Positions 10,595 to 27,892 of a DNA stretch of 27,892 nucleotides are shown here, one piece after another (the first letter of the stretch is position 1; each line of letters starts with the position of its first letter). Below the pieces are notes generated by a model that worked only from the letters and a program-made list of their open reading frames with translations, was not told where the DNA came from and searched no databases. A program made the position numbers and the translations under genes. Source of the DNA: a virus. The stretch lies in IMG/VR virus record IMGVR_UViG_3300035698_008087, positions 1-27,892 of that record, one strand, 5' to 3'.

Positions 10595-11457
10595 GCTAAG
10601 GCATCCTTTTTAAGAGGAATTGTATGAAAACCTCTGTAATTAGCTGTATTTGAATAAGTATCATCGCAAGTATCAAGTGCTTTATCGCAACCTCTATATA
10701 TAGTATATCTATCATTAGCTGAAGGAGTTGTTGTAAAAGCATAATCTAATGTTACTACACCTGCAGCAAAATCAAGTACTTTTCTTTTCTGGCTAATTCC
10801 ATCGCCAGAAGTAATTTCTATTTCGCCGTAATTCCAATAATCATTTGCTTGACTTAAATTAGTATCTGTTATTGTTGTTGTAGTAGCAGAATCACATCTT
10901 CCTGAATATTTGTTAGCAGCAGAATCTTTATCAACACCACAACGAGTGCTACCAAACTTTGTATTACAATTTATTTGATACATCCATCCACATTCAATAT
11001 TAAGAGAACCTAATGAAGAAACACAACTAATTTGTGCTTTTTGAGGAGGAAATAATATATATTCTATTCTACCATCAAACACTATTTTAGCGTCATTAGC
11101 AGAAGTTAAATATCTTCTATCAGCCCATCTAATTACTATACGTTTATTTCTAAAATCATACTTAGCTGCGTAAGCAGACATTCCTTGATTTACATTATCA
11201 ACTTCTACAGATACTCTATTTATTTCAGTGCTAGTTATTCTCTTCACCGCATTTCTTACTATTGCTAAAGCCCAATAACTTTGAGCATCGCTATCTGTAT
11301 CGAAAAAATTAATGTCTTCTATATAATTAACAAAATGAAGAGTTTCCGAATCAGGGGATGTTTGACTTGATCCTAAGAAGATATCATAGAATTCAACAGG
11401 GTGAATGGAAGTTGAATTTTTAACATTAGTAATATTCTTTGAAAGGTCATAACTCAT
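10591..11457 (-). CDS. BR0599 / gpL-like tail tip protein (DUF2163 type), 288 aa
   Basis: The C-terminal GCDKALDTCDDTYSNTANYRGF is the hallmark of the BR0599 family, and the middle has further paired cysteines (CGWMYQINC, TRCG). Lambda gpL, with a similar role, holds an iron-sulphur cluster through conserved cysteines, so metal binding is possible here. ATG 11457 overlaps the DUF2460 stop (ATGA) with GAGGTGG ahead. It lies between the DUF2460 protein and the gpK/J-like fusion, the usual order at the tail tip. Length is normal. Confidence 0.85.
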   Translation of the reverse strand: MSYDLSKNITNVKNSTSIHPVEFYDIFLGSSQTSPDSETLHFVNYIEDINFFDTDSDAQSYWALAIVRNAVKRITSTEINRVSVEVDNVNQGMSAYAAKYDFRNKRIVIRWADRRYLTSANDAKIVFDGRIEYILFPPQKAQISCVSSLGSLNIECGWMYQINCNTKFGSTRCGVDKDSAANKYSGRCDSATTTTITDTNLSQANDYWNYGEIEITSGDGISQKRKVLDFAAGVVTLDYAFTTTPSANDRYTIYRGCDKALDTCDDTYSNTANYRGFHTIPLKKDALA

Positions 11458-12170
11458 GCGTTGCCACCTCTAGGAGTGTATCCAGAAGGCCAACGTACTT
11501 CTTTAAAAGTAAGGCTACCATTAAGAAGTTGATATGCAAACAATTCTCTTGTCATTGCATCGCTATTGAACCGTACCATAAAATAGAATTCATAACTAAC
11601 TGTTAAAGCAGTGCTTCCACCGGGAGCTGCACCATATACTACATAAGATTTTTCAGTAGCGAAATTATTTGTTAGGGTTGCCGATACAGCGCTTCCAGCG
11701 ACATAAGCAGTGAAATTAGCACTCGTATCTACAGGGAATTCATCTAATAAAAAAGTAGTTTCAGCAGCATCGCCTGTGCCAACACTTTCAGTAGTTACTT
11801 CGTATTCTTGAGATATCTTAATTAAAAATACTCCTTCACGACCTTTTTTAGAAATAAACTTATTCCATAAAGTATCCATATCAGTAGGAGAAAGATATTC
11901 AGCATCAGCATTAAATGTTCTAAGCCCTGAATCCCATATAGAAGCACGTTGTTCTTTTCCACTTATATACGGCGTTATTTCAGTTACAAAATTTATCCCT
12001 TCTTTCATACCAAATTTTATTCCACCAGTAGGAAAAGATAAAATATCATGCGCTAATGTAGTAGTAGTTGATGTTGACGTGGTTGAAGTCGAAGTCGTTG
12101 AAGTCGATGTAGTCGATGTCGAAGTCGATGTAGTTGAAGTACTTGTTGTACTAGTTGAAGTAGTGCTCAT
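11454..12170 (-). CDS. DUF2460-family distal tail protein with N-terminal Ser/Thr tract, 238 aa
   Basis: From about residue 43 the protein matches DUF2460 (TIGR02217-type) tail proteins: FPTGGIKFGMKEGINFVTEITPYISGKEQR, then W, then a 'Y.....MDTLWNKF..KKGREGVFL' block and a C-terminal 'VRFNSDAM.RE..AYQLLNGSLTFKEVRW'. These proteins form the distal tail ring next to gpL. Residues 2-38 are purely Ser and Thr in ST and STT units and are not part of the family. ATG 12170 overlaps the tape measure stop (ATGA), so the tract begins right at the start codon. An insertion-like loop (about 112-180) has the beta-hairpin style seen elsewhere in this phage. Confidence 0.82.
   Translation of the reverse strand: MSTTSTSTTSTSTTSTSTSTTSTSTTSTSTTSTSTTTTLAHDILSFPTGGIKFGMKEGINFVTEITPYISGKEQRASIWDSGLRTFNADAEYLSPTDMDTLWNKFISKKGREGVFLIKISQEYEVTTESVGTGDAAETTFLLDEFPVDTSANFTAYVAGSAVSATLTNNFATEKSYVVYGAAPGGSTALTVSYEFYFMVRFNSDAMTRELFAYQLLNGSLTFKEVRWPSGYTPRGGNA
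12057..12167 (-). repeat. Ser/Thr tract 1 (37 codons)
   Basis: Residues 2-38 of the DUF2460 protein contain only Ser and Thr, in ST and STT units with no adjacent serines. The codons are mixed (TCG, TCA, AGT for Ser; ACT, ACA, ACG, ACC for Thr), so the pattern is kept at protein level. Confidence 0.95.
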
Positions 12171-15634: not shown

Positions 15635-16651
15635 TTACGACGTTGTTGATGTTGTTGACGTTGTACTCGTTGATGTCGTTGATGTTGACGTACTTGTTGT
15701 TGTTGTTGTATCAGTAAAAGCAATACTTAATTCATCATCACCTGAACTCATATTCAATTCTGCTGTACAGTTATATACTCTTACACCGTCTCTGTCGCCT
15801 TCACCTACAATTGTATACCTTGCTTTTGGCATACTTAACACACATTGCAAATAATCAGCCGCAACTAATGTGATTGAAATAGCTGCCTCTGTTGTAGAAT
15901 GCAATTTCCCAATAAAATCATGCGTAGCTACAAGCTCTGCTTCAGGGTCAAATGTGGCAATTGGATTCCTTTCTGTAACTTGAGAATGGTATATCCCTGT
16001 TGAATCTCCGAAATATGGCTTTGCGATTACTGTGTTTTGTAAATCTATTTCAAAATTGTCTATATACAAAGTATCAGTGAATACTGTGACTTGGGCATTC
16101 TGGAAAATAAAAGGCACTGAAGCAGGGTAAGTAGGTGACAACATAGCTTCATCTTCACAAGTTGAATATTTCCCTGTGAAAGTGAACTCTATCATTACTG
16201 GTTCGCCTGTCTTACCAATTATCTTAGCATTACCCATTGCGCCACAAAGTAGCTTTTTAACACCGTCTTCCCAAATTCCAATAGATAATGTCTTCATCGT
16301 ATCAGCATCACTCTCAGGAGTGTATGTCGACGATGTACTACCACTTAAAGCTTCTTCCATCCCACATCCTTGCAATAACGTACCTACAACAGAAGTTATG
16401 CCTAAAGTGGCATATGGTGGCCCCATAAACTCAACTCTAAACGTAACTTCAGCTAATTGCGTTCCCGGAATAGAGTTCATTCGTGAAATGGTTTTCCTAA
16501 AAGCATTACGCTTAAACTGAGCTGTATTGAAATTAAATGTAGGTTCATAAGCTAAAACAGTAGCTTGTGCTGCCTCTAAAGTTTCAACTGTACCTTTAGC
16601 GTCCTCAACCTTTACTGCCATTTGACATCTGCGTGTTAACATATCTCCCAT
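15635..16651 (-). CDS. Major tail tube protein with C-terminal Ser/Thr tract, 338 aa
   Basis: ATG 16651 lies 5 bases after AAAGGAGG. Features fitting a tube subunit are: the 'FKRNAFRKTISRMNSIPGTQLAEVTFRVEFMG' N-terminal block, a beta-rich centre, 'ERNPIATFDPEAELVATHDFIGKLHS' around 230-255, and a C-terminal beta segment 'RVYNCTAELNMSSGDDELSIAF'. Its place is after the tail terminator and before the chaperones. Residues 315-338 are Ser/Thr-only, ending at the stop, so hundreds of copies per tail could each display a flexible Ser/Thr tail if the C-terminus faces outward. Confidence 0.78.
   Translation of the reverse strand: MGDMLTRRCQMAVKVEDAKGTVETLEAAQATVLAYEPTFNFNTAQFKRNAFRKTISRMNSIPGTQLAEVTFRVEFMGPPYATLGITSVVGTLLQGCGMEEALSGSTSSTYTPESDADTMKTLSIGIWEDGVKKLLCGAMGNAKIIGKTGEPVMIEFTFTGKYSTCEDEAMLSPTYPASVPFIFQNAQVTVFTDTLYIDNFEIDLQNTVIAKPYFGDSTGIYHSQVTERNPIATFDPEAELVATHDFIGKLHSTTEAAISITLVAADYLQCVLSMPKARYTIVGEGDRDGVRVYNCTAELNMSSGDDELSIAFTDTTTTTSTSTSTTSTSTTSTTSTTS
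15638..15709 (-). repeat. Ser/Thr tract 2 (24 codons, C-terminal)
   Basis: Residues 315-338 of the tail tube protein are Ser/Thr-only and run up to the stop codon. This is the one complete tract at a C-terminus. Confidence 0.95.
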
Positions 16652-17153: not shown

Positions 17154-17972
17154 TTATCTTTGCCTAGAAGGATGCGTTAAATAGTCTCCGCCACAAGGGA
17201 AAGTTAGATCGAGGTCTTTAAAGGCCATGCCTGCAGATGGTGCTATTTCACTAGTACCACCTTTAACGCCTTTGCCCATATGTGAATTGTAGAAATCCAG
17301 ATATGTATTGGCTAATGCCTCACACTCATCTCGTTTCGAGAGGTAGTCTATTGAATCAGCACTATAAGTGGACTCAATAGTTTGAGTGTAGTATGCAGCG
17401 AGGGCCTTGAAGCAGAAAGCAGTTGCTAAATCACTAAACGCACCCAAATCTCTTTCATAGATCGTACAAGCTTCTTGATCTATGACATGAGCAATACTAT
17501 ACTTATACTTTAAAATGGCACTACTCGCAGGAGTAAATCCTGTGAGTCTTAATTTTTCTGTGTCAGTAGCGTCTCTATAAATAACCCAATCATTATCATC
17601 AACTAATTGAATTTGCTGATATACATCAACATCTACAGGATACTCTATTTGCCCGTAGATTTGAGAGAACCCTACTTCCCAATCCGAGGGAAGGTCAAAC
17701 TGAAAAGTTGAGCCATCCCCCGTTTCGGTCTTAATTTTTATATAAGGCCTATCTCTATCATAAGATATCTTAGCTTTTTGAATATACGTTTCGTGATCAT
17801 CTATTTCAAGAAGCTCGGCCTTATCTTGTAAGTTAGTTCTTATACGTCTTAACACATCACCTATTGTAAGATGTGGAGCAAGGCTAGTCGTAGTCGAAGT
17901 TGTAGAAGTCGTCGATGTAGAAGTCGTTGATGTACTTGTTGTTGACGTACTTGTTGTACTGGTCGTTGACAT
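17154..17972 (-). CDS. Head-tail connector / adaptor-like protein with N-terminal Ser/Thr tract, 272 aa
   Basis: ATG 17972 follows AGGAGAAAAGG. Residues 2-30 are Ser/Thr-only. Then comes 'LTIGDVLRRIRTNLQDKAELLEIDDHETYIQKAKISYDRDRPYIKI', a helical start followed by a beta-rich region, and a helical C-terminal half with 'DLATAFCFKALAAYYTQTIESTYSADSIDYLSKRDECEALANTYLDFY'. The helical bundle end resembles phage head-completion adaptors. Placed between the capsid and tail modules it is most likely part of the neck. Confidence 0.6.
   Translation of the reverse strand: MSTTSTTSTSTTSTSTTSTSTTSTTSTTTSLAPHLTIGDVLRRIRTNLQDKAELLEIDDHETYIQKAKISYDRDRPYIKIKTETGDGSTFQFDLPSDWEVGFSQIYGQIEYPVDVDVYQQIQLVDDNDWVIYRDATDTEKLRLTGFTPASSAILKYKYSIAHVIDQEACTIYERDLGAFSDLATAFCFKALAAYYTQTIESTYSADSIDYLSKRDECEALANTYLDFYNSHMGKGVKGGTSEIAPSAGMAFKDLDLTFPCGGDYLTHPSRQR
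17883..17969 (-). repeat. Ser/Thr tract 3 (29 codons)
   Basis: Residues 2-30 of the connector-like protein are Ser/Thr-only, directly after the start codon, in the same ST and STT unit pattern as tract 1. Confidence 0.95.
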
Positions 17973-17992: not shown

Positions 17993-18460
17993 CTAAGCTT
18001 TATATATCAATACTTCACATCCTGCTGATAATCTACTTATAAACATACCTCTTGAGAACGTAGCCGGTGCTGCAAAAGTACGTTCTTTTGTATATCCATA
18101 TGCTGATACATCACCTAACTTCGCATATCATATTCTATGTATTTGCGCTTCGTCTCTATCTATTTCACATTCATCATTATCGGCAGTACCTATAAACTCA
18201 AACCCTAATACTGTCATTGGTTTATTCGATACTAATCCAATTTCTCTACATCTTATAGGATTCCCTGCTGTGTAAATACCTGTAGAAGTAGTCGTACTTG
18301 ATGTCGTTGATGTCGAAGTCGTAGAAGTCGAAGTCGTAGAAGTCGAAGTCGTTGACGTAGAAGTCGAAGTCGTCGAAGTAGAAGTCGTAGACGTTGAAGT
18401 CGAAGTCGTAGACGTAGAAGTCGTTGACGTTGATGTGCTAGTAGTAGAAGTTGTAGACAT
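17993..18460 (-). CDS. Ser/Thr-tagged virion protein with an in-frame TGA (110 aa, or 155 aa if read through)
   Basis: ATG 18460 follows AAAGGAGATTTATT. Residues 2-60 are Ser/Thr-only, the longest complete tract. About 50 residues of ordinary sequence follow (GIYTAGNPIRCREIGLV ... EIDRDEAQIHRI), then TGA at 18130-18128. The same frame continues for 44 codons, YAKLGDVSAYGYTKERTF...AGCEVLIYKA, to TAG at 17995-17993. The extension has the composition of a normal protein and starts without any ATG or ribosome binding site. If TGA is obeyed, the product is 110 residues and 155 bp (17973-18127) are non-coding. Located between the decoration-like protein and the connector, it may be a capsid decoration or neck component. 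Family unknown. Confidence 0.6.
18281..18457 (-). repeat. Ser/Thr tract 4 (59 codons)
   Basis: Residues 2-60 are Ser/Thr only, mostly in ST and STT units, with a single adjacent Ser pair near the end. This is the longest complete tract in the window. Confidence 0.95.
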
Positions 18461-18488: not shown

Positions 18489-18833
18489 TTAGCTACTAGC
18501 GGGTGAAGCACCAACTACGTGCCAGTATGTTCCGTCACATTTAAATAAAAGACTTCCATAATCAGGAACATCTACATGATCATAATTAGCTCCGCCACCT
18601 GCAAAGCCTGCAGCGATTGTTACTTTATGACCAGTACCTATCGAAACAACACGAATTGCTTTACCCTTCATTGCAGCAACAACAGTCGGCAACGTAACTA
18701 CTTTAGTTGTTGCAGTCATTGTCACTTTGTCATATTTCTTTAAATTGGCATTAGTAACTGTATAATCATCAGTCTTTGCTAAATTACGTTCTACAATTCT
18801 AAAACCTTTTGTAGCTCTTGAACCATAAGGCAT
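18489..18833 (-). CDS. Capsid decoration-like beta protein, 114 aa
   Basis: ATG 18833 lies 5 bases after AGGAGG. After a short basic N-terminus the sequence is beta-rich: 'TATTKVVTLPTVVAAMKGKAIRVVSIGTGHKVTIAAG', then 'DYGSLLFKCDGTYWHVVG'. This 'VTLP...GK.irV..iGtg..VTI...G...L.....cDGt.W.vvg' pattern recurs in phage fibre and decoration proteins. Encoded straight after the major capsid protein, it is probably a decoration subunit. An upstream structured RNA (18848-18927) may control its translation. Identity inferred from position and pattern. Confidence 0.6.
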   Translation of the reverse strand: MPYGSRATKGFRIVERNLAKTDDYTVTNANLKKYDKVTMTATTKVVTLPTVVAAMKGKAIRVVSIGTGHKVTIAAGFAGGGANYDHVDVPDYGSLLFKCDGTYWHVVGASPASS

Positions 18834-18847
18834 TTTAACCTCCTGTT

Positions 18848-18927
18848 TTGTTTAATGGCAGTTGAGGAACTGCGACGATAGAGGTTACTCCCCAGTGTAG
18901 GAAAGTAACCTCATCGTCCTTAAACAA
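18848..18927 (-). ncRNA. Three-way-junction RNA element between capsid and decoration genes
   Basis: Three nested helices can be drawn in this gap. The outer stem pairs TTGTTTAA (18848-18855) with TTAAACAA (18920-18927), and G18857 with C18919. Hairpin B is GCAGTT, loop GAGG, AACTGC (18858-18873). Hairpin A is GACGAT + GAGGTTACT (18874-18889, one bulged A) with AGTAACCTC + ATCGTC (18904-18918) and a 14-nt loop. Bases are given on the + strand; the transcript is the complement. It starts 12 bases after the capsid stop and ends 4 bases before the Shine-Dalgarno of the next gene. There is no U run, so it is not a simple terminator. Confidence 0.7.
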
Positions 18928-18939
18928 GTTGAAATTAGA

Positions 18940-20871
18940 CTAAGCAACTATTCCTGCAGCATAAGCTCTATAATCAGGAACAACGCCACCATACTCATGT
19001 CTTACTTTATATCTGATTGTATCGTAAACGAACACGTTCCCGACAGTAGGCTGATCCTGTACAAGAATCTCAGGATTTTCTTTTCCATTCAAGAAACCTA
19101 TTTCAATCAGTTCGATCTGCTCTTTCATTGCTGAAAGATAATAGTTATTCGTATCGCCACGAAGATAAGGAGACACTTTTGTTTGGAAAGCACCCTTCAA
19201 AGTATTGATACCATTCTCAACATTTTCAGGATGAAGCTCTGAATTCTCTATTTTTAATGCAGTACCTTGTCGTCTTTTAGGAACCCAAAGATTAGGACTA
19301 TCTAATCCAATGATATCTGTAATTTTATAAACATATGAACTTACTGCATGTTGAGCAGCCGTTGTTCCCATGATACCTCTTACAATTGTTAAGGCATCGG
19401 TTGCAACACTATCTACTCTCATATACTCACCAAATATCTCAATAATATCTCCGGCTTTGAAATATTGGCCAGTTCCACCTGTTACATTCAAGGTAGTTGC
19501 ACTATCAGTTAAAGGACTATCTGTGCTTAATGTTTGATTACCCTGTTCACCTTGGTTATACATTTGTGACAATATCTCGTCAATAGCATCGAAATCCAAC
19601 GCATCAGTGCTATAGTTATTATGTGCAGCAGCAAAAAGAGCTGTAGAATTAGCTGTGCCGTCTTTAGCAGGCCATTTAACAGCAGTATTAATACCTGTAA
19701 CCGTATAACCCATCATTAAATCAAATACGAACTGATTCAATGTTCTACTTGCGGCACGACTAAGTTTAGAAGGTATCTTTTTCAAGCTACGAAGATCATC
19801 ATTGATGATTGCGCGTCTTGTTACAGTTACCAACCCACCCTTAGTAGCAACAGCGTATGTCTGCTCAGTATCAACAGGGAAACCGAGTTCTGGATAAGTA
19901 GGAGTAGCAGTATCAGTAGAAGTTCCTTGAGTCGTTCTTGCAGCTACAACTTCAGGAAGAACACCAAACCCGCCCCACTTAATCAACTCAACCATTTTGA
20001 AATCTTTAACGCCAACAACATTAGCAATCTCTTTCCATAAATAGCCTAGCGTTTTATACTCTTTCTGCATCTTTCTGTTAATCGAATAACCAAGCATATA
20101 ACTAAAACTTCCGCTAGTGGCTTCCTGCAGACTCTTTTTTGAGTACTGGCCAACCACTTCAATGTCACCGGTTAGATTAACATATGCTTCTCTTAAACCT
20201 TCAAAAGCTTCTATACCGTCATAGTCAGCTTTTTCATCATCTGCTATGTCACCGTCAAGCATTAAATCAAGAGACGCCTGCAACTTTTCTACAGGAGCTT
20301 TTGTACCTTCAAAGCGAAATGTCTCTTCGCCAATATCAAAACCTGCATCACTTTCTACCAATTTAGCTAAAGTTGCTTTTTCAGCTTTAAGATCTGCTTT
20401 CAAAACTGCTTCAGTAAAAATGGTATTATGATACTTGGCTTTAATTTTATCTTTGATTGGCTGCGGCAATTTACTTTCAGCAAGGTGTGAAATTAAAATA
20501 CCATTACATTCTCTTAGCGATTCTTTCTTTTCAAGACGTGCCATTTTTTTGTTTAGGCCATCAATCTTTGCATTAGCTTCTTTTAATGCTCCATCGTCTT
20601 TCTTTTCATCATCTTCTTTCTTTTCATCATCTTCTTTCTTCTCATCATCATCTTTCTTCTCATCGTCGTCTTTCTTCTCATCGTCGTCTTTCTTCTCATC
20701 ATCATCTTTCTTCTCATCGTCGTCTTTCTTCTCGTCGTCGTCTTTCTTCTCGTCGTCTGGAATAGACTCAAATATCGTCATTACTTCCGCTTCTGTGAGA
20801 TTCTCAAGGTCTTTGCCTTCGAGTAAATCAGGGTGGCGTTTCTTTAAGAAATCAAGCACTTTCTTAAACAT
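18940..20871 (-). CDS. Internal in-frame start giving scaffold-major capsid protein, 643 aa
   Basis: Met205 of the fusion (ATG 20871-20869, MFKKVLDFLKK) is preceded by GGAGG at 20883-20879 with a 7-base spacer, an ideal ribosome binding site inside the coding frame. It lies exactly at the end of the protease domain. Independent initiation here would make scaffold plus capsid without protease, in excess over the full-length fusion, as lambda Nu3 is made from within gene C. Inferred from sequence; not shown experimentally. Confidence 0.7.
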   Translation of the reverse strand: MFKKVLDFLKKRHPDLLEGKDLENLTEAEVMTIFESIPDDEKKDDDEKKDDDEKKDDDEKKDDDEKKDDDEKKDDDEKKEDDEKKEDDEKKDDGALKEANAKIDGLNKKMARLEKKESLRECNGILISHLAESKLPQPIKDKIKAKYHNTIFTEAVLKADLKAEKATLAKLVESDAGFDIGEETFRFEGTKAPVEKLQASLDLMLDGDIADDEKADYDGIEAFEGLREAYVNLTGDIEVVGQYSKKSLQEATSGSFSYMLGYSINRKMQKEYKTLGYLWKEIANVVGVKDFKMVELIKWGGFGVLPEVVAARTTQGTSTDTATPTYPELGFPVDTEQTYAVATKGGLVTVTRRAIINDDLRSLKKIPSKLSRAASRTLNQFVFDLMMGYTVTGINTAVKWPAKDGTANSTALFAAAHNNYSTDALDFDAIDEILSQMYNQGEQGNQTLSTDSPLTDSATTLNVTGGTGQYFKAGDIIEIFGEYMRVDSVATDALTIVRGIMGTTAAQHAVSSYVYKITDIIGLDSPNLWVPKRRQGTALKIENSELHPENVENGINTLKGAFQTKVSPYLRGDTNNYYLSAMKEQIELIEIGFLNGKENPEILVQDQPTVGNVFVYDTIRYKVRHEYGGVVPDYRAYAAGIVA

Positions 20872-21483
20872 GGTTAATCCTCCATTTTCAGTTTGTTGTG
20901 AAGCCAATAAATTAAGTAGCCGTCCGCCTGCGGCAGGATCGGTAACAAGATCAACCGAATCTACTGCTTTGATAGCACTAACCCATTCGACTGGTTTACC
21001 ACCTACTAGTCTATACTGAGTTTCGCCACCTGCATTGATTGATAATCCTAGGAATTGTTTTTTACCTTTTTCCCATGTATTTTTTAACATACTCTTTAGC
21101 CATTCAACGCCTTCGTGTAAATTAAGATTTCCGGTAAGACCTTTAATGGTTTTACCTTCGTACTCAATTTCTTCATACTGTACGTTTTCTAGCCACCCTG
21201 CTATTTGTCTAGGGAACCCCGAAGGATTCGTTTGTTGTATAGCAGGGGAGAGATGATTGAAAAAGTTTTTCTTAAACTCATAATAACAAACTTTTGCACC
21301 TTCGAATAATGAGATTGTGTTTTGTAGGAGTTCTGAGGAATAGAATTTGCCATTCTTAGAAAGTCCGTTTTCAATAATCATAACTTTCCAAGATTTGCCA
21401 CTCGTAGATGATTCTAATAACTTTAGGGAATAATTGCTAAAAAATGAAGATTGTTTGGTAGGTTGTTTTTTCTTGCGCTTCAT
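18940..21483 (-). CDS. Fused prohead protease - scaffold - major capsid protein (HK97/Mu gpT-type), 847 aa
   Basis: Start ATG 21483 (a TTG at 21498 is possible). Residues 1-195 look like a prohead serine protease: His77 in FFNHLSP, Ser148 in FLGLSINAGG and a conserved VDLVTDPAAGG near 178-187. Residues 205-240 precede an Asp/Lys linker (243-296). A coiled-coil scaffold-like segment (about 300-380) follows, then the capsid domain with 'VTRRAIINDDLRSLKKIPSKLSRAASRT' and 'LFAAAHNN', as in Mu-gpT-like capsids. A 65-residue insert (SPLTDSATTLNVTGG...AAQHAV) resembles surface beta domains of other phage proteins. Protease and capsid are usually separate. Here maturation would involve self-cleavage within a mixed shell, with an internal start supplying the bulk of capsid subunits. 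Confidence 0.85.
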   Translation of the reverse strand: MKRKKKQPTKQSSFFSNYSLKLLESSTSGKSWKVMIIENGLSKNGKFYSSELLQNTISLFEGAKVCYYEFKKNFFNHLSPAIQQTNPSGFPRQIAGWLENVQYEEIEYEGKTIKGLTGNLNLHEGVEWLKSMLKNTWEKGKKQFLGLSINAGGETQYRLVGGKPVEWVSAIKAVDSVDLVTDPAAGGRLLNLLASQQTENGGLTMFKKVLDFLKKRHPDLLEGKDLENLTEAEVMTIFESIPDDEKKDDDEKKDDDEKKDDDEKKDDDEKKDDDEKKDDDEKKEDDEKKEDDEKKDDGALKEANAKIDGLNKKMARLEKKESLRECNGILISHLAESKLPQPIKDKIKAKYHNTIFTEAVLKADLKAEKATLAKLVESDAGFDIGEETFRFEGTKAPVEKLQASLDLMLDGDIADDEKADYDGIEAFEGLREAYVNLTGDIEVVGQYSKKSLQEATSGSFSYMLGYSINRKMQKEYKTLGYLWKEIANVVGVKDFKMVELIKWGGFGVLPEVVAARTTQGTSTDTATPTYPELGFPVDTEQTYAVATKGGLVTVTRRAIINDDLRSLKKIPSKLSRAASRTLNQFVFDLMMGYTVTGINTAVKWPAKDGTANSTALFAAAHNNYSTDALDFDAIDEILSQMYNQGEQGNQTLSTDSPLTDSATTLNVTGGTGQYFKAGDIIEIFGEYMRVDSVATDALTIVRGIMGTTAAQHAVSSYVYKITDIIGLDSPNLWVPKRRQGTALKIENSELHPENVENGINTLKGAFQTKVSPYLRGDTNNYYLSAMKEQIELIEIGFLNGKENPEILVQDQPTVGNVFVYDTIRYKVRHEYGGVVPDYRAYAAGIVA
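20596..20757 (-). repeat. Nine tandem DDEKK(D/E) units, Asp/Lys linker in the capsid fusion
   Basis: An 18-bp unit is repeated nine times, encoding DDEKKD with E in place of the last D in two copies, at residues 243-296. It is strongly charged and probably helical or extended, and joins the protease part to the scaffold coil. Third-position changes between copies show age rather than recent slippage. Confidence 0.95.
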
Positions 21484-21581
21484 ATTTATTCTCTGCAAAA
21501 GTGAGATTATTCCTTTGCATCAACATATTAATACTCCACAAAGAATAAATATTTAAAAATAATTTGTGCTTCTATAAATAT

Positions 21582-26684: not shown

Positions 26685-27135
26685 GGACTTTTGTTTCGCC
26701 TCCCATTAAGAGTAGTTCAAGTTTTACCAATCTCTCAAATTGATTAAGATTAGCTTTCATTACTAATTCGCCATTATCAACACGCTCTTGAAATTTACCT
26801 ATTACTTTTCGTACCATCACCAACAATTCTTTCCTTCTAGTCAATATGTGTTCATCTAGCATCGTATAAGTTTTATCTTGTAAAAATTCTAGGCGCACCT
26901 TCAAAGGTTTAATACTTCTTTTTATATCACCTTTCTCAAAGTACTTCTTACCAGTATCATAAGAAATCTCAACTCTATTACATGCCGCTTTTAAACTAAG
27001 CCCTTCCGTTAACGCTTCGTATAAATCCTCGATTTTGGTTTCAGGTAGTCGATACTGATATCCGTACCCTTCCTTTTTATTTTTCGGAAGAGTTAAATTT
27101 GCTAATGAATTTGGATTCATTTGTCTTTGTGTCAT
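26629..27135 (-). CDS. terS: Terminase small subunit, 168 aa
   Basis: ATG 27135 follows GAGGAGATTAATTGTA. Residues about 34-66 form a helix-turn-helix of small terminases (EDLYEALTEGLSLKAACNRVEISYDTGKKYF), followed by long charged helices for ring assembly (about 80-145). It lies directly before TerL. Small terminase subunits recognise the packaging site and regulate TerL. The C-terminal tail is acidic and Gly-rich. The packaging site itself cannot be identified here. Confidence 0.82.
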   Translation of the reverse strand: MTQRQMNPNSLANLTLPKNKKEGYGYQYRLPETKIEDLYEALTEGLSLKAACNRVEISYDTGKKYFEKGDIKRSIKPLKVRLEFLQDKTYTMLDEHILTRRKELLVMVRKVIGKFQERVDNGELVMKANLNQFERLVKLELLLMGGETKVHEKQGFSAEDIAGLGQPQ

Positions 27136-27140
27136 TACAA

Positions 27141-27440
27141 TTAATCTCCTCTCTTTTTTCTAACAACAAAATCTATTCTACCTGTACGCTCATCTGCGCC
27201 AGTAGAAAATTTCGCTGTTAAGAATGCACTATATGAGCCTGCGGCTAAATCAGATATTTTATAATATACTACCGTCCCAGAAATACTCGCTGTAGTAGAA
27301 CTTAATATTGACCTAGAATTGCTTTTTCTTTCCCATATTTCAACTAACCCTGAATTTGCATCAGGCGTTTGCGCTACATTCTCAATTTCCCATTGACCTC
27401 GCAACGTTACATCATCATTCACATAATATTCATGCCGCAT
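27141..27440 (-). CDS. Small Ig-like beta protein, 99 aa
   Basis: ATG 27440 follows AAAGGGGGTGAAATA. The sequence alternates beta strands with short loops: 'DVTLRGQWEIEN', 'GLVEIWERKSN', 'SGTVVYYKISDLAAGSYSAFLTAKFSTG', 'RTGRIDFVVRKK'. The pattern 'G.v.y...DL..G.Y.a.....G......g...f.V' is common in phage Ig-like beta-sandwich proteins, such as baseplate or fibre-associated domains. Its place between the Ser/Thr-repeat gene and TerS gives no clear role. It may decorate the capsid or a fibre. Confidence 0.6.
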   Translation of the reverse strand: MRHEYYVNDDVTLRGQWEIENVAQTPDANSGLVEIWERKSNSRSILSSTTASISGTVVYYKISDLAAGSYSAFLTAKFSTGADERTGRIDFVVRKKRGD

Positions 27441-27455
27441 TATTTCACCCCCTTT

Positions 27456-27892
27456 TTACGGGTTATCATTAAAATCGTAATTATACGTTTTATCTTTAAA
27501 TTTATAATCATTTGTCTTATCAACAAAATCGTAATCATAAGTTTTTTCTACAAAAATATATTCAGCAGGAGCGATAGTTGTTGTAGTCGATGTTGTACTC
27601 GTTGATGTCGTAGACGTAGATGTCGTTGAAGTACTTGTTGTTGACGTAGTACTAGTTGAAGTTGTAGATGTACTCGTTGTACTAGTCGTACTTGTTGATG
27701 TTGTTGAAGTCGAAGTAGTCGACGTACTTGTTGTACTAGTCGTACTTGTTGATGTTGTTGACGTAGAAGTAGTCGACGTACTTGTTGTACTAGTCGTACT
27801 TGTTGATGTTGTTGACGTAGAAGTAGTCGACGTACTCGTTGTAGAAGTTGTACTCGTTGATGTTGTTGAAGTCGAAGTAGTCGACGTGCTCG
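27456..27892 (-). CDS. Ser/Thr-repeat protein, 5' end beyond the window
   Basis: The frame is open to the right edge, with TAA at 27458-27456. At least 105 residues next to the edge are Ser/Thr only, in ST and STT units, then TTTTIAPAEY. It ends in three 9-residue units, KTYDYDFVD, KTNDYKFKD and KTYNYDFND, and DNP at the C-terminus. The start is not seen, so whether more domains precede is unknown. It shares the tract with three head or neck/tail proteins and the tube protein, which suggests a virion protein. Confidence 0.65.
   Translation of the reverse strand, partial: STSTTSTSTTSTSTTSTTSTSTTSTSTTSTSTTSTTSTSTTSTSTTSTSTTSTTSTSTTSTSTTSTSTTSTTSTSTTSTSTTSTTSTSTTSTSTTSTSTTSTTTTIAPAEYIFVEKTYDYDFVDKTNDYKFKDKTYNYDFNDNP
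27576..27892 (-). repeat. Ser/Thr tract 5 (at least 105 codons, cut by edge)
   Basis: The coding strand is a run of ACN and TCN/AGY codons. On the + strand it reads as GTN-GAN-like 15-18 bp units, including near-identical copies such as GTACTTGTTGTACTAGTC at about 60-bp spacing. It is the longest tract in the window. Confidence 0.95.

Follow-up and report, generated by a model that had tools for sequence, protein, structure and literature searches.

A three-way-junction RNA is present in the mRNA at the boundary between the capsid gene and the next gene of the window, the whole 27,892-nt stretch of DNA analyzed here, which is a virus record represented by a single contig. Junctions with the same position and architecture, and with the compensatory changes that the preliminary description had asked for, were found in related phages. 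The chances are about even, in our judgment, that such intercistronic junctions couple the synthesis of a spike or decoration protein to translation of the preceding gene.

The capsid gene boundary and its RNA fold

The structured RNA is held in the gap of 106 nt between the capsid gene and the next gene on the minus strand. The locus has the following features.

18940 to 21498, minus strand: upstream gene, fused head-maturation protease / major capsid protein, with stop codon UAG at 18942-18940 (open reading frame, PHROG matches)
18920 to 18927, minus strand: outer stem, 5' strand UUGUUUAA (fold; the same strand sequence occurs in group B relatives)
18874 to 18918, minus strand: hairpin A (H1), with 19 bp, a single bulge and a loop of 6 nt, carrying GAGGUUA at 18912-18906 (fold)
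18858 to 18873, minus strand: hairpin B (H2), 6 bp, with loop CCUC at 18867-18864 (fold)
18848 to 18855, minus strand: outer stem, 3' strand UUAAACAA (fold; the group B model aligns here)
18839 to 18844, minus strand: Shine-Dalgarno (SD) sequence AGGAGG of the next gene (sequence)
18489 to 18833, minus strand: downstream gene, 114 aa, capsid-spike/decoration-like, with its start at 18833 (alignment, AlphaFold, Foldseek)

The product of the capsid gene has PHROG matches to head maturation protease and to major head proteins. An 18-nt tandem repeat in nine copies (20594-20757) encodes a DDEKKD repeat inside this fused gene. The downstream 114-aa protein is homologous to the product of the gene located 3' of the group A element described below (26-46% identity, alignment A11). 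A Pfam search with this protein gave no match and a PHROG search gave weak matches only, while its AlphaFold model (pLDDT 79.8) was matched by Foldseek to a phage tailspike (24qj, E 3e-4) in the first place and to a phage capsid spike (9ny6, E 4.5e-3) in the third. On the basis of these PHROG and fold matches we use 'spike or decoration protein' as a working name; the gene, which had been called a decoration protein gene, is better described as a candidate for a capsid spike or decoration protein.

Counted from the first base of the UAG that closes the capsid gene, the outer stem begins at a distance of 15 nt, and its 3' strand stops 3 nt short of the SD. The outer stem and the two hairpins after the capsid gene, together with every named feature, were recovered at their previously assigned places on the minus strand. 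The fold was also far more stable than expected from its composition: the region 18927-18848 has a minimum free energy (MFE) of -45.2 kcal/mol versus a mean of -22.45 (sd 3.42) for shuffled sequences (z -6.65), and none of 200 shuffles was equally stable. In a scan of 408 minus-strand segments the junction region provided two of the four lowest z-scores. The outer stem is predicted with a probability of 0.97 when the flanks are local, and of 0.6-0.87 when they are longer. When hairpin A was fixed and its flanks were shuffled, 13 of 1000 sequences folded as well as the native one, and an 8-bp outer stem arose in 2.7% of them; thus the junction stands above chance, less dramatically than hairpin A does, and most of the signal of the branched structure comes from this hairpin. 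There is no U-run 3' of the structure, where the sequence is AACAGGAGG. The structure folds on the opposite strand too, and the group B model scores 14.6 bits there. A slipped outer stem, CUUGUUU/AAACAGG, which covers part of the SD, is the MFE structure in a short context but has a probability of 0.01 with the natural flanks, and was rejected.

The preliminary description had further proposed that the 3' arm of hairpin A leaves the hairpin to pair with the SD. The repeat behind this idea exists, as GAGGUUA occurs both in hairpin A (18912-18906) and in the SD region (18842-18836), and a shared 7-mer of this kind has p ~0.02 when the arm alone is considered and 0.125 when it may lie anywhere in the element. 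However, the pairing of the 3' arm (18881-18887) with 18842-18836 has an equilibrium probability of ~1e-11, costs +17.1 kcal/mol, requires the opening of a 19-bp hairpin that forms first, and is unconserved. Across the gaps of ~46 relatives, the longest complement to the SD was not notably above that in shuffles (lowest p 0.05 and 0.07). The CCUC loop of hairpin B, named earlier as another partner of the SD, has no counterpart in the relatives. A switch of this kind is therefore extremely improbable, and if anything contacts the SD in the relatives, it is the outer stem together with the nucleotides immediately 5' of this stem, and not a hairpin arm. From the original idea of a translational switch tying the decoration protein to capsid translation we retain the geometry, which suggests a link between upstream translation and the next start, and drop the exchange between arm and SD.

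A conserved junction in related phages

Group A consists of 17 distinct loci with related capsid genes. Capsid searches yielded one close relative from the single sequence and many from alignments, and alignments A7 and A13 were built from excerpts of the listed loci. A tblastn search for capsid relatives in genome_contigs gave none, and annotated phages provided distant capsid matches only, the nearest being Microcystis phage Mae-JY22 (~33% identity), which has a different gap. The relatives are all metagenome contigs, the E-values of the covariance models reported here are rough, and the family has at least the range described here.

The 17 distinct gaps of group A have the form UUAAUGGCGAUGG-(H1)-CACAGCUGUUAAGCUGAAAAAUGCUUAAUGUUAAGGAGG, a three-way junction in the same gap as in the window, with conserved loops and strong covariation. 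When 12 sequences were aligned with MAFFT, the paired cells amounted to 99.6%, in comparison with 31-48% in slid-structure controls, and seven pairs include 25 cells changed on both sides; the covariation score is 0.346 versus 0.122 +/- 0.018 in shuffles (0 of 500). Alignment of 29 copies to the model, a procedure that leans towards the structure, brought the number of doubly changed pairs to 12 and that of doubly changed cells to 63. The covarying changes are confined to H1 and H2. The outer stems of both groups A and B are nearly invariant and thus contribute no covariation; they are backed by conservation, position and thermodynamics.

Unpaired residues conserved in group A include the H1 internal loop (GGC-GA-UG / CA-CA-GCU) and the H2 loop UGNAAAAU, and their conservation suggests a specific fold or a binding site. 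A G-U pair is kept in 28 of the 29 copies, which favors a transcribed, sense-strand RNA over a palindrome acting at the DNA level; the latter explanation is disfavored in this group. The RNA of group A is a conserved structure, and it appears to represent a family that is missing from Rfam 15. In one phage record of this group (L119, 4798-4874) a tmRNA model gave a sub-threshold match (36.7 bits, gathering threshold 47, E 2.8e-11), and ARAGORN detected no tmRNA in that record.

Second copies and the position of the stop codon

In group A the element is placed exclusively before spike/decoration genes. With the model of this group, R1, ten distinct loci were found to have a second copy farther downstream (E 2e-5 to 2e-14), always immediately ahead of the second paralogue of the spike/decoration gene; the genomes are related to one another, so these are fewer than ten independent cases. 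The larger records, of 8.5-71 kb, contain one or two R1 copies and none elsewhere. The H1 hairpin is long and GC-rich in the first copies and short in most of the second ones. A different hairpin precedes the next gene in the gap that comes 3' of the second spike paralogue in L082 (2619-2673) and L081 (3952-4025).

The outer stem (UUAA) of the group A copies begins between -1 and +19 nt from the first base of the stop codon. The first copies begin 5-19 nt past that base. Among the second copies, six of ten contain the stop codon (UAA) of the preceding gene inside the outer stem, the remaining ones begin 5-9 nt past its first base, and the SD follows the opposite strand of the stem. Of the six genes whose stop codon is part of the stem, five have UCU as their last sense codon, after GCC, UCC or UCU; in five genomes without the second element the last sense codon before UAA is AGC, AGU or ACC. 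For an Ala-Ser ending this amounts to a synonymous switch, with GCC UCU in the presence of the element versus GCU AGC/AGU or GCA AGC in its absence. Through this switch the last codons can form pairs with the UUAAGGAGG strand.

Group B and the place of the window element

The outgroup, group B, includes L032, L033, L034, L066 and L068, as well as the divergent L130. Its junctions have the form UUGUUUAAC-(H1)-(H2)-GUUAAACAA directly before the SD, and since some of the loci were found by searching for that outer stem as a pattern, the frequency of the stem in this group is partly selected. Nine pairs with double changes were observed in five sequences, and none of 500 shuffles did as well on any measure. 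Pattern matches in L064 and L065 belong to other gene contexts and were set aside. The gene after the group B junction encodes a protein of 306-336 aa that is not a spike homologue (L126 2796-3713, L122 2790-3800, L130 548-1519), and the L126 protein has no significant Pfam or PHROG match.

An outer stem UUGUUUAA/UUAAACAA that surrounds two hairpins and lies immediately 5' of the SD is common to the window and group B; the sharing of its 5' strand has p ~0.02-0.03 as estimated with a shuffled window flank. The group B model, R2, which was built without the window, finds its best match in the whole window at 18931-18843 on the minus strand, although the match is weak (17.7 bits, E 0.016, or E 0.17 over all loci searched), and it also touches the group A second copies (E 0.007-0.7). 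The best match of model R1 in the window, with filters off, has 7.5 bits and lies elsewhere than the junction, so the element fails the group A model. The conserved H1 internal loop and H2 loop of group A are absent from the window, where the base of H1 is fully paired and the H2 loop is CCUC. The location of the window element is that of group A, with the stop codon of the upstream gene on its 5' side and the SD of a spike/decoration-like gene on its 3' side.

In the capsid tree the window joins a clade characterized by terminators and hairpins (100/99), without resolution of its position inside this clade, which in turn is sister to group A (100/99), with group B outside. Given this topology, a single ancestral junction is possible; it is plausible that this junction was kept in the window and replaced in its neighbors, and an independent origin is also possible. 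The nearest capsid relatives of the window have U-run terminators or plain hairpins in the gap, and all close relatives have a strong hairpin there, of several unrelated designs (terminators, long hairpins, junctions); thus a strong hairpin alone may be what the gap needs. An apparent junction in L003 (GUUUAA...UUAAAC) is missing in its relative L019 and was for this reason treated as a plain hairpin. The window element would be an outlying member of the RNA structure conserved in the related phages, and the reading as an intercistronic coupling element is convincing for group A and plausible for the window.

Accessibility of the SD and the proposed mechanism

In a simple model of a terminating ribosome, pairing was forbidden for every base as far as 15 nt beyond the beginning of the stop codon. 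In seven of the ten second copies, the SD is predicted to pair with upstream sequence with a probability of ~0.5-0.94, and in most of these the pairing is largely abolished under the ribosome at the stop, decreasing from 0.91 to 0.07 in L082 and from 0.94 to 0.16 in L087, with L117 as an exception (0.89 to 0.78). The effect is variable in the first copies of group A. For the window, the upstream pairing of the SD decreases from 0.11 to 0.00, and overall accessibility is unchanged (0.25 to 0.26). Hence a structure that includes the upstream stop region is predicted to hide the SD in many group A second copies, in comparison with the value of 0.11 for the window, and coupling by release of the SD is well motivated by the model for the second copies and unproven for the window.

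One strand of the outer stem begins at the stop codon or immediately 3' of it, and the opposite strand runs up to the SD, so that the folded RNA brings stop and start close together and keeps the next ribosome-binding site (RBS) at the base of a stable structure. According to the proposed mechanism, a ribosome that reaches the end of the upstream gene would open the outer stem, which in many relatives would also release the SD, and most of the downstream protein would come from RNAs whose upstream gene is under translation. The coupling could proceed through RNA unfolding or through handover of the terminating ribosome, and a folded bridge would shorten the gap of 60-110 nt. The anatomy of the element (the stop at one foot, the SD at the other, repeats before paralogues, and codons adapted to the stem) fits initiation tied to termination. 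From this anatomy we infer an effect on translation, and by extension the window element would act in the manner of its counterparts in the relatives.

In tailed phages, control over the proportion of capsid protein to accessory head proteins is usually ascribed to promoters, terminators and the strength of the SD. A more far-reaching proposal, which we regard as tentative and rather doubtful, is that the junctions form a new family of branched RNAs with specific conserved loops, bridging a stop to the next start, in which the terminating ribosome would be handed across ~60-110 nt; a clade of tailed phages would set its capsid-to-spike ratio in this way, and the element would have been copied with the duplicated spike gene. 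A conserved, covarying RNA spanning the region from stop to SD would offer a compact system for asking whether the terminating ribosome opens the structure or is itself passed on, a choice left open in the coupling literature (PMC12548453).

Alternative explanations

The same gap could carry an element for RNA stability or processing, which would either protect the 3' end of the abundant capsid mRNA or provide an RNase III-like cut separating the capsid and downstream messages. The unrelated designs of the strong gap hairpins in every close relative are in line with it, as are the 19-bp H1 of the window and the distribution of H1 lengths in group A, where the long GC-rich form in first copies and the short form in most second copies look as if the gap after the capsid gene needs extra stability. 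However, the group A element is also found between two spike genes, its loops are conserved beyond the needs of stability, and the last codons of the upstream gene are adapted to the outer stem; as the principal function, this role seems unlikely, if worth keeping in mind. The conserved unpaired residues of group A, both in the internal loop of H1 and in the H2 loop UGNAAAAU, and the presence of copies before both paralogues would also suit an operator, to which a putative phage or host protein, e.g. the spike/decoration protein itself, would bind and repress the next gene (autogenous control). This is improbable, as the conserved loops are missing from the window and from group B. Both of these roles are possible and may coexist.

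Partial termination of transcription, which would fix how much downstream product is made per capsid, has precedents in the window's own clade, where six distinct relatives have a hairpin followed by a U-run in the gap. In the window, as in groups A and B, the structure lacks a U-run on its 3' side, and such a function is very improbable for the junctions.

Comparison with known RNA elements

No Rfam 15 family matched the window at the gathering threshold, and with lax settings no match was obtained at the element in the window or in the elements of seven relatives. Our literature searches gave no description of the junction element. The pairs MS2 coat/lysis and E. coli rpmI-rplT, and f1 gene VII, are cases of translational coupling by RNA unfolding (review PMC12548453). 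They resemble the present element in that upstream translation is proposed to open a structure near the next RBS; in contrast to them, here a junction with conserved loops spans the gap from stop to SD and recurs before paralogues, and its coupling function is one that we infer. Coupled gene pairs operate by unfolding or reinitiation, with the highest efficiency at short intergenic distances (PMC12548453), and in one library screen structure just 3' of the stop codon correlated negatively with coupling (review PMC12548453), which counts against the coupling reading.

Similarly to the junctions, manA, wcaG and the c4 antisense RNA are covarying structured RNAs in phage genomes, and the first two are cis elements upstream of genes (PMC2864571). 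Unlike these motifs, the present element is located between two genes inside a structural operon and has no match in Rfam 15. Intrinsic terminators after major capsid genes occupy the same genomic position and are found in close relatives, whereas the present element is branched and without a U-run.

Other features of the window

Another strong fold was observed at 27111-27220 on the minus strand, at the end of the gene 27141-27440 (z -6.5 with 40 shuffles; z -3.6 with wider flanks). A 54-nt tandem repeat of 4.4 copies (27654-27892) reaches the end of the record. Several structural genes (11454-12170, 15635-16651, 17154-17972, 18128-18460) have Thr/Ser-rich tracts (TTSTSTTSTST) at one end, which are encoded by related tandem DNA repeats; their group A homologues possess long poly-Ser tails instead.
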